From: Candidatus Methylomirabilota bacterium
Lineage (GTDB): Bacteria; Methylomirabilota; Methylomirabilia; Rokubacteriales; CSP1-6
NCBI GenBank assembly: GCA_036001065.1
Contig: DASYUQ010000203.1
Location: 1 to 47,049 of the forward strand
DNA: 47,049 nucleotides
Direction of reading: 5' to 3'
Shown: positions 8,635 to 38,423 of the stretch, piece by piece
Position numbering within the stretch: the stretch's first letter is position 1
Layout of the letters: the number at the start of each line of letters is the position of its first letter
The notes under the pieces: model-generated
The model's input: the letters and a program-made list of their open reading frames with translations, nothing else
The model's database searches: none
What the model was told of the DNA's origin: nothing
Program-made: the position numbers and the translations under genes

Positions 8635-9491
8635 GCCTGGCCGGCACGAAGGTCGCGCACGTCCTCGACGCGATCAAGTTCGAGCACACGGTCTTCGCGC
8701 TGCCCTTCGCCTACATCGCGATGGTGCTGGCGGCGCGAGGCTGGCCCGGCTGGTGGACCGTCGTCTGGGTCACGGTGGCGATGGCAGGCGGGCGCACATG
8801 CGCGATGGCCACCAACCGAGTCATCGACCGATTCCTCGACGCGCTCAACCCGCGCACGGCGGCGCGCCACCTGCCACGCGGCGTGCTGCGCGCCTGGGAG
8901 CTGAAGGCGCTGGCGGCGGCAGGCGCCGCCCTCATGGTCGTCGCCGCCGGGATGCTGAACCCCCTCTGCCTGGCGCTGGCGCCGCTGGCGCTCGTGTTCC
9001 TCCTCGGCTATTCCTACACGAAGTACGTCACGTGGACGTCCCACTGGATCCTGGGCTTCACCGACGGCATCGCCGCCGGCGGGGGCTGGATCGCCGTCAC
9101 CGGGCGCCTCGATCCGCCGGCGCTCACGCTGTGGTTCGCGCTGACCGTGTGGATCGCCGGCTTCGACCTGATCTACGCCTGCCAGGACGTCGACTTCGAC
9201 CGCGCCCACGGGCTTCACTCCGTGCCCGCGCGCTTCGGCATCGCCGCCGCGCTCACCATGGCGCGCCTCAATCACGCGCTGACGGCGGTGGCCCTCGCCG
9301 CGCTCGGCTGGATGACCGGCCTCGGCCCGCTCTACTGGGTCGGCTGGCTCGTCATCGTGGCGCTCCTCGCGTACGAGCACTCGCTGGTGCGCCCCCACGA
9401 TCTCTCGCGACTGAACATCGCGTTCTTCAACGTCAACGGCTACATCGCGGTGATCGCCTTCATCGCCGTCCTCGCCGGACTGGAATGGTAG
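8631..9491 (+). CDS. UbiA family prenyltransferase (MqnP-like)
   Basis: An integral membrane prenyltransferase that attaches the isoprenoid tail to an aromatic quinone precursor. It has about eight or nine hydrophobic helices, the first Asp-rich motif NRVIDRFLDALNPRTA near residue 62, and the second motif QDVDFDRAHGLHS near 184. The start is uncertain. The conserved first helix (KFEHTVFALPFAY) lies upstream of the first in-frame ATG (8721), so initiation is probably at CTG 8631, which overlaps the ubiD stop by 4 nt in the manner of translational coupling. Context points to menaquinone synthesis by the futalosine route. A ubiquinone-type 4-hydroxybenzoate transferase is less likely. Confidence 0.88.
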   Translation: MSLAGTKVAHVLDAIKFEHTVFALPFAYIAMVLAARGWPGWWTVVWVTVAMAGGRTCAMATNRVIDRFLDALNPRTAARHLPRGVLRAWELKALAAAGAALMVVAAGMLNPLCLALAPLALVFLLGYSYTKYVTWTSHWILGFTDGIAAGGGWIAVTGRLDPPALTLWFALTVWIAGFDLIYACQDVDFDRAHGLHSVPARFGIAAALTMARLNHALTAVALAALGWMTGLGPLYWVGWLVIVALLAYEHSLVRPHDLSRLNIAFFNVNGYIAVIAFIAVLAGLEW

Positions 9492-9567
9492 TGCGAGCCG
9501 CAGGGCGGCCAGGGGCGGGGGCCCCTGCGCCCGAGGCGAGCCTGGGGACACTCGTGCGAGCCGAGCC

Positions 9568-10260
9568 GTGAGCAAAGCGCGCGACGTCCGCGTGATGTTC
9601 ACGCGCATCGCCGCCCGCTACGACCTGATGAACTCCCTCATGACCGCCGGACGCCACCACGCCTGGCGCCGCCTGGTGGCCCGGGCGGTGGCCGCCGCGC
9701 CGCCCGGCCTCGTGCTCGACCTGGCGACGGGCACGGGGGACCTGGCGCTGGCCATCCATGACCGCCGCCCAGAGCGTCTGGTGGTCGGCGCCGATTTCTC
9801 CGAAGGGATGCTCCGCCAGGCCCGCCCCAAGCTCAGCGCGCGGCGCGCAACGCGCATCCTCTTGCTCGCCGCCGACGCGCTGGCCCTGCCCTTCGCCGAC
9901 AAGACGTTTGCCTGCGTCAGCTCGACCTTTCTCCTGCGCAACCTGGAACATCTCGGGCGGGGCCTGGAAGAGATGCGGCGGGTGACGCTGCCGGGCGGAC
10001 GGGTCGTCGCCCTCGACATCGTACGGCCGGCGATCCCGCTCTGGGGCACGCTCTTCGGCTTGTACTTCCACCGCGTCGTCCCCGCCATGGGCGCCCTGGT
10101 GGCCGGTAACCGCCACGCCTACACGTACCTGCCGCAGTCGGTCGACCGGTTCGTCACGCCGGCCGAGCTGGCCCGGATGATGGCACAGACGGGACTGCGC
10201 GACGTCACGTATCGCACCCTCGGCCTGGGGACGGTCGCCCTCCACATCGGCATCGCCTAG
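9568..10260 (+). CDS. ubiE: UbiE/MenG-type quinone C-methyltransferase
   Basis: A 230-residue SAM-dependent methyltransferase. Motif I is DLATGTGDLAL near residue 50, followed by the acidic-loop segment GADFSEGML and the UbiE-type ALPFADKTF and RVTLPGGRVV segments. It most likely methylates demethylmenaquinone, the last step of the pathway represented by the two genes before it. The start is GTG 9568, giving SKARDVRVMFTRIAARYDLMN, the normal UbiE beginning. It lies 76 nt after ubiA, so it is probably in the same unit. The stop codon is followed immediately by an inverted-repeat element. Confidence 0.9.
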   Translation: MSKARDVRVMFTRIAARYDLMNSLMTAGRHHAWRRLVARAVAAAPPGLVLDLATGTGDLALAIHDRRPERLVVGADFSEGMLRQARPKLSARRATRILLLAADALALPFADKTFACVSSTFLLRNLEHLGRGLEEMRRVTLPGGRVVALDIVRPAIPLWGTLFGLYFHRVVPAMGALVAGNRHAYTYLPQSVDRFVTPAELARMMAQTGLRDVTYRTLGLGTVALHIGIA

Positions 10261-10441: not shown

Positions 10442-11287
10442 TCAGCCCAGCGAGGCCAGGAACCCGGCGAGCACCTCGACGAACGCCTGGGGGGCGTCGA
10501 GCACGAGATGATGATACGCGCCCGGAATCCCCACGAGCGTGGCGTGCGGGATTGCCGCCCGCATCCGCTCGGCCAGCTCGGGCGCCAGGATCGGGCTCCA
10601 TTCGCCCCGCACGATCAGCGTCGGCGCGCCGATGCGCCCGAGCAGCGCCCACGTGTCCGCGGGCCGACGTAGCCGATTGCAGTCGGGGTCGAACCGGTAC
10701 GTCCACCCGCCAGGGCGCGGGACGACGCCCGCCCGGGCCAGATGCGCGAGCAGCGCGGGCTCGGCAACGGTCTCGCGGGGAAGCAGGCGGAACACGGCCA
10801 CAGCCTCCTCGAGTGTCGGATGGAGGCGGAGGGCCCGGTGGCCCCGCTGGCGCAGGCGATTCAGGCGCTCCTCGGGGATCGATGGCCGCGAATCGATGAT
10901 CACCAGCGCCCTCACCCGCTCCGGGTGCCAGGCCGTGAACGCCATGGCGTTGTGGCCACCCATCGAGTGCCCCACGACGACCGCGCGCGGCCAGCCCAGC
11001 GCGTCCAGCACGCCGCGCAGGTCGCCGGCGAACTGCTCGGTGCCGTACACGGGGGGATTCGGCCAGTCGCTCTCGCCGTGGCCACGTTGATCGAGCGCTA
11101 CGACGTGAAAGCGGTCTGCGAACGCGGGTGCGACACGGTCGAACCAGTGGGCGTGGGCCGAGCCCCCGTGAAGGAAACAGATCGCGGGCTGACCGGGCGC
11201 CCCCCACTCCAGCAGGTGCAATCGGAGCCCATCGACGCTCAGGGTTCGGCTCCGGGCCGATTCACAGCCGAATTGTAATTTTGTCAC
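10442..11287 (-). CDS. Alpha/beta hydrolase
   Basis: A 281-residue soluble alpha/beta-hydrolase-fold enzyme. The oxyanion-hole segment ICFLHGGSAHAHWF follows the first strands. The nucleophile Ser is in GHSMGGH near residue 107, and the catalytic His is probably in GAYHHLVLD close to the C terminus. The best acid candidate is the Asp or Glu in the strand TLIVRGEWS. Substrate cannot be read from sequence; haloalkane dehalogenase, epoxide hydrolase and ester hydrolase subfamilies share this layout. The start is GTG 11287, with TACAAT 6 nt upstream and no ribosome-binding site, so it is probably leaderless. It is divergent from the next gene. Confidence 0.88.
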   Translation of the reverse strand: MTKLQFGCESARSRTLSVDGLRLHLLEWGAPGQPAICFLHGGSAHAHWFDRVAPAFADRFHVVALDQRGHGESDWPNPPVYGTEQFAGDLRGVLDALGWPRAVVVGHSMGGHNAMAFTAWHPERVRALVIIDSRPSIPEERLNRLRQRGHRALRLHPTLEEAVAVFRLLPRETVAEPALLAHLARAGVVPRPGGWTYRFDPDCNRLRRPADTWALLGRIGAPTLIVRGEWSPILAPELAERMRAAIPHATLVGIPGAYHHLVLDAPQAFVEVLAGFLASLG

Positions 11288-35281: not shown

Positions 35282-35355
35282 TCGGAGGGGGCGGACGTTA
35301 CGGCCCCCTCCGAGGCCTCCCCCAGGACCGATTGCGCCGGCAAAGCCGGCGGATT
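35282..35355 (+). repeat. Dispersed two-hairpin repeat, copy B
   Basis: The first hairpin (TCGGAGGGGGC with GCCCCCTCCGA, same loop as copy A) is followed by CTCCCCCAGGA and then hairpin GCCGGCAAAGCCGGC. It starts 2 nt after the stop of the membrane protein gene, in a convergent gap. Confidence 0.75.
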
Positions 35356-35362
35356 CACCACA

Positions 35363-35438
35363 TCGGAGGGGGCGAGCCGCCCCCTCCGATGCCTCCCCAC
35401 TTCTCTTCGTTGCGCCGGCAAAGCCGGCGCTCGAACGG
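35363..35438 (+). repeat. Dispersed two-hairpin repeat, copy C
   Basis: It directly follows copy B, in the same orientation. The first hairpin has a shorter loop (TCGGAGGGGGC, GAGC, then the complement). The second is identical to copy B (GCCGGCAAAGCCGGC) and ends CTCGAACGG as in copy A. Confidence 0.7.
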
Positions 35439-35461: not shown

Positions 35462-36211
35462 TCACCAGAGGGCATCGGGCAGAGGCAGGCCGCGGAACGC
35501 GTCGACGGGCATGGGGGCCGGCGGCGTCACCCCCAGCCGGTCGGCCAGCACGTAGAGCTGGCGGAGGTGCTGGGCGGCGTGCCAGGCGGTGCGCTCCAGC
35601 AACTCGTGTCCCGACTGCGGGCCGTAGTAGGTTTTCACGACGCCCGCGTATTCCCCGGCCGCCGCGCCCTGGAACCAGCCCTGCAGCCGCGCCCTGACCA
35701 GCGCCCCGTAGCTGCCGAGCGCGGCGCCGTCGCGAATCCCGGCGGGCGCCGTCTCCTGGAACCACGACTCGGGCAGCGCGCCGAGATCCATGGCGTCGAT
35801 GAACGCCAGGCTCAGCCGGAAGACGTGGTAGCCGAGGTCTCTTAGACTGCGATCGCGCTCGGGAGGCTTGAAGTCCAGGTGCGCGTCGGGGAGCGCGCGC
35901 AGCAGCCTCTCGGTCGATTCCAGGATTTGATCGAGCCGGGCCGCCAGCTCGGCCGGCGGCAGCTTCGCCGCCGCTTCGTACGCCACTCCCAGCAGGCGCG
36001 CGTACTCCGGCGGGTTCCAGCCGTGCACCGCCTGGTCGCCGACGGCGACGGCGGGCACCCGGGGCACCCCCAGCCGCTTCAGCTCGGCCAGCGCCGTCGG
36101 GTCGCCTTCCACGTTCACCGGGTCGAACTCGACCCTCCAAGACGCCAGCAACTCCTTCGTCTTGGCGCACGACGATCAGCCGGGTCGGTAGTACAGTCGC
36201 GGCTTCATCAT
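35462..36211 (-). CDS. Selenocysteine glutaredoxin-DinB fusion protein
   Basis: A 249-residue protein when TGA 36178-36176 (codon 12) is read as selenocysteine. Before it is MMKPRLYYRPG, after it SSCAKTKELLASW, giving GUSSC, a UxxC motif (Sec12, Cys15) where glutaredoxins have CxxC. The glutaredoxin fold continues with VEFDPVNVEGD and GVPRVPAVAVGD, whose cis-Pro is present, to about residue 78. The rest (about 85-245) is a DinB-type four-helix domain with potential metal His residues in LGYHVFRLS and TAWHAAQHLRQLY. DinB domains include thiol transferases, so a low-molecular-weight-thiol redox role is plausible. Start at ATG 36211 or 36208, overlapping the stop of the ABC binding-protein gene. 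Confidence 0.88.
36137..36165 (-). promoter_or_regulatory. Candidate SECIS hairpin of the glutaredoxin-DinB gene
   Basis: CCAAGACG (36165-36158) pairs perfectly over 8 bp with CGTCTTGG (36144-36137) around a 13-nt loop, AAGGAGTTGCTGG, which can form a small inner AG/CT pairing. The loop starts 19 nt after the TGA. This is the strongest of the three hairpins. Confidence 0.65.
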
Positions 36212-37199
36212 TCGATCACCTGATCGGCCCTCAGCAGCAGCGACGGCGGAATCGTGAGGCCGAGGGCCTTGGCGGTCTTGAGGTTGATCACCAGCTCGAA
36301 CGTCGTCGCCTGCTCAATTGGAAGATCCCCGGGGTTGGCACCCTTCAGGACTTTGTCCACGTGAATCGCAGCCCGCCGGTAAAGGTCGCGAAGACTGGGT
36401 CCAGAGGCCATGAGGCCTCCAGCATCTGCATACTCCCGCTCCGGATATATGGCCGGGAGACGGGCTCTCATCGCAAACTCCACGACCTGTTGTCGGTGAG
36501 TATGGACGAGGGTATCGGCTAGCGTGACGAGCGCGTCAGAACGTGCAGTGCGGATCGCTGCCCAGGCCGACTCCCAATCTCCTGGCTGTCGCACCTCCAC
36601 CGGCTGAAGGCTCATACCCAGTGTTCGGGTCGCCGCTTGCAATCTCCCGAGTTCCGGGACCAGCGAGGGATTGAGAGGATTCCAGAGGACGGCGAAGCGA
36701 GAACTCTTGGGCGCGGCTTCCTTGAGTAGCTCAGCCGCTTGACGACCAGTTCTGCAACAATCGTCAGTCCGGTAATGTTCCCGCCCGCCTTGGCGAGGCT
36801 GCTCAGGAGCCCGAATTCGACCGGATTGCCAGTGATTGCCACGATAGGCAGGCTGGCGGTTGCTCGCTTGGCGGCCAGAGCCGCGGGCGTTCCCCGCGTG
36901 AAGAGAACGTCAACCTTGAGCCTGAGGAGCTCTTCGGCGAGATCGGAAAGCTTCTCAGCCCTGCCCTCCGCCCATCGCGCCTCGATGGTCATCGTGTGCC
37001 CGTCTGAGTAACCGAGCTGGCGCAGGCCCCGGCGGAACTCATCGACGAGGTGAGCCTCGGAGGTCGCGCCGCCGCCTGAGAGGTAACCAATCCGCGCCAC
37101 CTTCCCCGCCTTATACTCCTGCGCCTCGGCGGCCAGCGGCGCGGCCAGAAGGCTGAGCGCCAGCCCTGCGACGGTGACGGCCGAGCGTGCGACCTTCAC
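36208..37199 (-). pseudogene. ABC transporter substrate-binding protein (TrpX-like), single-base frameshift
   Basis: Two overlapping frames together encode about 330 residues of an ABC_sub_bind (TrpX/DUF534-like) periplasmic protein. The first (37199 to about 36736) has a signal peptide (VTVAGLALSLLAAPLAAEAQ), then VARIGYLSGG and VDVLFTRGTPAALAAK. The second (from about 36735) continues with AELLKEAAPKSSRFAVLWNP and ends TAKALGLTIPPSLLLRADQVIE, the usual C terminus. One base is missing near 36735 (AAGCGGCTGAG). This could be decay or an assembly error. GTG 37199 is preferred because GGAGG precedes it by 5 nt. Its DNA is visibly less GC-rich than its neighbours, which hints at transfer. No permease or ATPase genes are nearby. 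Confidence 0.8.
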
Positions 37200-37272
37200 G
37201 TTCACCTCCGGCTTGATCTGCGAGGGAGGCCACGAACCTATCGCGCGATCTGCGAGGCGTCAAGCCGAGATG

Positions 37273-37634: not shown

Positions 37635-38423
37635 CTACCGCCCGCGGAACGTCGGCGTCTTCTTGTTGACGAACGCCGTCACCCCTTCACGGAAGTCGTC
37701 GGTCCGGCCGCAGGCGGCGATCGCCTGCGCCTCCAACTCCATCTGCGTCTCCAGACTCTCCCAGGTGGACTGGTGCAAGAGGCGCTTGGCCCCACCGAAT
37801 GCTTTGGTCGGGCCCTGCGCCAGCCCCAGCGCGAGCGCCTCGACGGTCGCCCTCAGCTCGGCGTCCGGCACCACCCGGGTCACCAGCCCCCACTCGTGAG
37901 CCTCGCGGGCCGAGAGCACGCGGTTGGTGAAGTAGAGCTCCATCGCGCGCCGCAGCCCGGCCAGCCGCGGCAGGAAGTAGGACGACGAGCCGTCGGGCGT
38001 CGCCGCGATCTTCGAGTACGCCATCGTGAAGCGGGCGGACTCGGCCGCGATGACGAGATCACCCGACAGCGCGAAGGAGAACCCTCCGCCGGCGGCGACG
38101 CCGTTGACGGCCATGATCACGGGCTTGTCGCTCCGGCAGAGGCGCGAGACGGCGCCGTGCAGATACGTCGTCAGCTCCTTGACCAGCGCGCCGATCCGCT
38201 CCAGATTGTCGGCGAAGTCCTTCACGTCGCCGCCCGCGCAGAAGGCCCGGCCCGCGCCCGTGATCACGACGCAGCGGACCTCCGGGTCGTCGTCCACCTC
38301 GAGGACGGCATGGAAGATGTCCCGCCCCAGCGCCAGGTTCAGCGCATTGTAGGCGTCGGGACGGTTGAGCGTGAGGGTCGCCACGTGGTCCCGGCGTTCG
38401 AGAATCAGGTGCTCGTAGCCCAT
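37635..38423 (-). CDS. Enoyl-CoA hydratase/isomerase family protein
   Basis: A 262-residue crotonase-fold protein. The first oxyanion-hole segment is GAGRAFCAGGDVKDF near residues 56-70 and the second is NGVAAGGGFSFALSGD near 107-122. In SKIAATPDGSSSYFLPRL the usual catalytic Glu positions are not clearly both present; the Asp of PDG may take one role. Hydratase, isomerase or another crotonase reaction is possible. Length matches the family. ATG 38423 overlaps the stop of the giant kinase gene (ATGA), and GGAGGAA is 6 nt upstream, so it is co-transcribed with it. Confidence 0.9.
   Translation of the reverse strand: MGYEHLILERRDHVATLTLNRPDAYNALNLALGRDIFHAVLEVDDDPEVRCVVITGAGRAFCAGGDVKDFADNLERIGALVKELTTYLHGAVSRLCRSDKPVIMAVNGVAAGGGFSFALSGDLVIAAESARFTMAYSKIAATPDGSSSYFLPRLAGLRRAMELYFTNRVLSAREAHEWGLVTRVVPDAELRATVEALALGLAQGPTKAFGGAKRLLHQSTWESLETQMELEAQAIAACGRTDDFREGVTAFVNKKTPTFRGR

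Follow-up and report, generated by a model that had tools for sequence, protein, structure and literature searches.

A putative selenoprotein joining a UxxC glutaredoxin to a DinB domain in Rokubacteria

Introduction

A 2026 inventory of bacterial selenoproteins counts 119 families, including Grx, UXX-star and several fusions (PMC13188914). The Grx entry (PF00462, UxxC; PMC13188914, Table 1) resembles the gene described here, Grx-DinB, in its glutaredoxin domain and in having selenocysteine (Sec) first in UxxC; it carries the glutaredoxin domain identifier alone, whereas Grx-DinB adds a DinB fusion. UXX-star and the HUGP/GUXX-star fusions (NF041212, NF045501) are also glutaredoxin-like Sec domains, some of them fused to others, but Grx-DinB scored far below their cut-offs (27.7 vs. 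66 bits and 22.8 vs. 325, respectively). Membership in UXX-star or GOS_C (NF045500) was dropped because no such model passed. By profile, the glutaredoxin domain of Grx-DinB was closest to the YruB and NrdH models and fell below both cut-offs. The 2008 GOS 'Grx-like' UxxC group could hold fragments of Grx-DinB.

STL/DinB enzymes hold a metal with three His residues and transfer low-molecular-weight thiols (PMC5815605). Grx-DinB has the four-helix bundle and three His of the DinB/YfiT STL superfamily (B. subtilis BstA-H, mycothiol S-transferase), but it carries an N-terminal Sec redox domain, and no selenoprotein member of the superfamily was found in the literature. Its general layout is also like that of GST, which has a Trx-fold N domain and a helical C domain; the helical domain is different, being DinB in Grx-DinB, and overall TM-scores reach only ∼0.3. 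An earlier note on this DNA had suggested a new family. In favour of this, no DinB-containing selenoprotein is among the 119 families of the 2026 inventory (PMC13188914). A literature search for DinB together with selenocysteine gave nothing relevant, but priority is unproven and an earlier mention is possible.

Rokubacteria, which GTDB places in Methylomirabilota, are soil and groundwater bacteria known mainly from metagenomes. According to PMC13188914, a groundwater MAG study reported 63 selenoprotein genes in one Methylomirabilota MAG.

Results and Discussion

The window, which is the whole stretch of 47,049 nt analyzed here, contains Grx-DinB on its minus strand (35462-36211), as judged from the frame, Pfam domains and homologues. 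Rereading of the frame 36211-35462 confirmed the earlier observation that it runs on continuously from ATG ATG AAG: it is open apart from a single internal TGA at 36178-36176, which is codon 12 counted from that start. With U at codon 12 the N-terminal peptide reads MMKPRLYYRPG-U-SSCAKTKELL, and Cys15, the resolving Cys of UxxC, is encoded at 36167-36169. The product of 249 aa ends at a TGA terminator at 35464-35462. Standard annotation had been expected to begin past the active site, and under standard rules the sole long in-frame ORF is indeed 35462-36151 (TTG start, 229 aa), from which the active site is left out.

We compared codon 12 among homologues in two sets of genomes. A first scan of an independent collection with one genome per species gave 44 relatives, one being a fragment; in the other 43, codon 12 was Cys in 34 and TGA in nine, the latter from seven Rokubacteria and two Alphaproteobacteria (L031 and L036). 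In 95 genomes from the phylum of the window, codon 12 was spanned by 51 matches, every one with the in-frame TGA (its position was directly read in 47 of these loci); none lacked it, and the lowest identity was 30%. Within the window's own family, 49 of 57 genomes had a match. The earlier note placed the TGA at the first Cys of a glutaredoxin CxxC, and took a lack of homologues with Cys or Sec at codon 12 to count against its reading; the position is Cys in the 34 homologues, and the loci read overall comprised 34 full-length Cys and 56 TGA loci, the sets partly overlapping. In a quick tree the Sec/Cys state requires two changes, one for the Rokubacterial Sec clade and one for the two Alphaproteobacteria, which their long branches make hard to place. 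The latter sit among Cys relatives, and the genome of L031 has tRNA-Sec near selB. Sec could thus have arisen on two occasions or been retained from an ancestor. DinB-only paralogues are present in a few Rokubacteria (G022, G024, and G026); three paralogues of this kind, without the glutaredoxin domain (L125, L126, and L127), come from one Rokubacterial genus.

Homology had been claimed in the same frame on both sides of the TGA, and Pfam detected a domain on each side. Glutaredoxin (PF00462) covers residues 6-61 (36029-36196, minus strand) with an E-value of 4e-12, and PDB Grx/NrdH entries were matched by both profile and fold. The four-helix DinB (S-transferase-like) domain (PF12867/PF05163) lies at residues 93-219 (35555-35935, minus strand), where DinB_2 gave an E-value of 5e-8; the DinB model matched residues 98-232 (E-value 3.5e-6). 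The Glutaredoxin and DinB_2 matches were above the gathering score. Invariant in a 33-sequence alignment were C15, H129, H211 and H215, residue 12 as either Sec or Cys, and Pro53, which sits where glutaredoxins usually have their cis-Pro. His129 (35825-35827) would be the first His of a putative metal triad completed by His211 and His215 (HxxxH, 35567-35581), whose spacing equals that of H160/H164 in YfiT (PMC5815605). An AlphaFold2 model built with the 33 sequences had a pLDDT of 92.7 and a pTM of 0.86. Foldseek matched its DinB half to DR0053 (6iz2) and YfiT (1rxq) with a probability of 1.00, and its N-terminal half to NrdH-type redoxins. Grx-DinB therefore has the PF00462 match, CxxC/UxxC motif and cis-Pro by which a glutaredoxin is recognized, as well as the four-helix fold and three-His site of DinB/STL proteins.

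A bacterial SECIS-like hairpin follows the TGA at 36137-36165 (minus strand). As the earlier note had it, a perfect 8-bp stem (CCAAGACG/CGTCTTGG, 36158-36165 with 36137-36144) begins 11 nt past the TGA and its loop 19 nt past it. The fold has an energy of -15.2 kcal/mol, which was matched by 20 of 200 shuffles (z-score -1.5). By single-sequence folding the window hairpin is thus not significant, and the RNA argument therefore rests on the alignment; its conservation across relatives is remarkable. We aligned 38 distinct TGA sequences over a length of 45 nt counted from the TGA. In the helix, which is longer in relatives, 87.8% of cells were paired and 21 cells had changed on both sides. Two-sided changes occurred in five pairs, a number attained by 3 of 500 shuffles; the pairing percentage and the covariation score were each attained by none of the 500. 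Sliding the helix partner lowered pairing to 35-52%. The hairpin is absent in Cys homologues: across 19 distinct Cys sequences these columns were 26.8% paired, with no covariation. The published bSECIS model calls for a loop of 3-9 nt, a G in the first two loop positions, a spacing of 16-37 nt and an MFE of at most -7.5 kcal/mol (PMC13188914). A check with a bacterial SECIS predictor had been recommended, and these constraints were passed by 36 of 38 distinct Sec sequences vs. 11 of 33 Cys sequences. A search with Rfam SECIS_1 found no match in the genome and none in the controls either, and is hence uninformative.

The earlier note also proposed a search for the Sec machinery in the source genome, which was successful only in part. 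The window's MAG (4.46 Mb, 239 contigs) encodes a SelD well over the cut-off, of Sec type with UGA at the catalytic position (SCAGUASK). Whole-assembly searches gave no SelA, no SelB over the cut-off and no tRNA-Sec. Weak SelB matches fell below the family cut-off and were taken as other translation GTPases; the best tRNA-Sec candidate scored 43 bits against a cut-off of 47, and the candidates were rejected as overlapping ordinary Ser, Leu, Arg, Gly, His and Tyr tRNAs (ARAGORN). The same-genus relative G052 has tRNA-Sec, selA and selB clustered on its contig C80, and in relatives the tRNA-Sec, with anticodon TCA, stands beside selA and selB. Positions 9000-9570 of that contig align at 95% identity with 7117-7686 of contig C80 of the window's MAG (G000). 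The latter contig stops at 7824, ∼0.75 kb (in G052 coordinates) short of the selC-selA-selB cluster, where the G052 tRNA-Sec starts at 10457. The stretch examined downstream of G052 selB did not map to G000. The earlier note counted missing Sec machinery in the source genome against its reading, and the absence of selA, selB and tRNA-Sec looks at first like such a case. As the contig ends just before the relative's cluster, however, selC-selA-selB most likely fell into an assembly gap. SelB was over the cut-off in 51 of the 57 family genomes and tRNA-Sec in 46; in the first scan, SelB was found in 9/9 Sec genomes vs. 10/24 Cys genomes tested.

These comparisons establish, at the level of prediction, the recoding, the UxxC motif, the domain pairing and the conserved His triad of Grx-DinB, which we regard as a real, if predicted, selenoprotein. 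Three other readings of the TGA were considered. If it were a true stop, the functional product would be a DinB-only protein made from a downstream start, with the glutaredoxin half as a remnant; the in-frame TTG downstream of the TGA and the existence of DinB-only paralogues speak for this. However, both halves are kept in frame in ∼50 genomes with Gly11, Ser14 and Cys15 retained, and Rokubacterial codon 12 is always TGA, while the other stops and the motif loss expected of remnants were not seen, making this reading highly improbable. A suppressor tRNA or a changed genetic code that inserts a standard amino acid at UGA would fit the missing tRNA-Sec of the window's assembly, but we consider this extremely improbable: Grx-DinB itself terminates with TGA, the TCA-anticodon tRNA-Sec of relatives adjoins selA and selB, and the conserved hairpin is confined to TGA genes. 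The probability of a sequencing or assembly error is negligible, since dozens of genomes assembled independently, and two Alphaproteobacteria, carry the same TGA, even though the window's assembly is fragmented and the adjoining ABC gene appears frameshifted. We concluded that UGA at codon 12 is, on comparative grounds, almost certainly decoded as selenocysteine.

The function of the predicted selenoprotein can be proposed less firmly. SelB and tRNA-Sec would decode the codon-12 UGA, guided by the hairpin, and the product would join an N-terminal U-x-x-C glutaredoxin to a C-terminal three-His DinB domain. The DinB domain might bind both a low-molecular-weight thiol and a divalent metal; reduction of the mixed disulfide, or dethiolation of the substrate, might fall to the Sec/Cys pair. 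We tentatively infer a combined thiol transferase and oxidoreductase, whose activity could perhaps be that of a metal-dependent thiol S-transferase or a dethiolating oxidoreductase. Canonical glutathione synthetase (TIGR01380) was detected in none of 30 Rokubacterial genomes, with E. coli and Caulobacter as positive controls. The thiol partner there may therefore not be glutathione, which argues for another reductant of Rokubacterial Grx-DinB. The lack of this synthetase is also compatible with a selenoprotein that is no thiol transferase or dethiolase and serves instead in CoA-thioester metabolism or in the handling of selenium or a metal, liganded by Sec or the His triad; metal-ligand roles have been proposed for UXX-star selenoproteins (PMC13188914), and an enoyl-CoA hydratase gene is the usual upstream neighbour in Rokubacteria. 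Such roles seem rather unlikely to us, as the resolving Cys and Pro53 are retained like those of redox-active glutaredoxins and loci of Cys homologues had no match to enoyl-CoA hydratase.

A UGA-decoded Grx-DinB selenoprotein, with a putative transferase/oxidoreductase role, is very probably the best explanation overall. It is conceivable, and somewhat doubtful, that the Sec-glutaredoxin and the metal-dependent DinB transferase form one enzyme of an undescribed family, a GST-like arrangement reached independently and using a non-glutathione thiol; the phylum showed no Cys form. With Grx-DinB the selenoproteins seem to gain a further family, one in which selenium use is tied to a DinB-type domain. 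Most of the sampled Rokubacteria carry the gene, whose active site is lost under standard annotation. Its Sec and Cys forms amount to a natural experiment on the reasons for which one phylum retains selenium in this enzyme when Proteobacteria mostly do not.

The enoyl-CoA hydratase gene lies at 37635-38423 (minus strand) in the window; in 38 of 52 Rokubacterial loci, which partly repeat the same genomes, a homologue lies upstream of Grx-DinB on its strand and is itself frequently preceded by a GAF/histidine-kinase gene. Proteobacterial neighbours differ from the Rokubacterial ones. The analysis was hampered by long antisense ORFs at ∼70% G+C, and several without a Pfam match were discarded. 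The neighbours are a weak hint to function.

A second selenoprotein gene, 5 kb from Grx-DinB, is predicted at 30949-30299 (minus strand), its TGA (30526-30524) standing for U in FSTPT-U-PYC. Its presence in the window, like the Sec-type SelD of the genome, speaks for recoding in Grx-DinB. The second gene scored 263 against TIGR02187 PDO_seleno_TRX (protein disulfide oxidoreductase; cut-off 185), and by this match it is assigned to the already known PDO selenoprotein family with UPYC. Its downstream fold was not significant alone. Just upstream of Grx-DinB, an ABC_sub_bind gene (36208-37205, minus strand) is split into overlapping frames at 36612-37205 and 36208-36642, which cover profile positions 16-122 and 157-293; this looks like a frameshift or a pseudogene. 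Just downstream, the intergenic stretch 35282-35435 consists of G+C-rich repeats, with similar stretches at >40 places in the genome. Similar repeats also occur in the G052 selB ORF, upstream of the GTPase domain.
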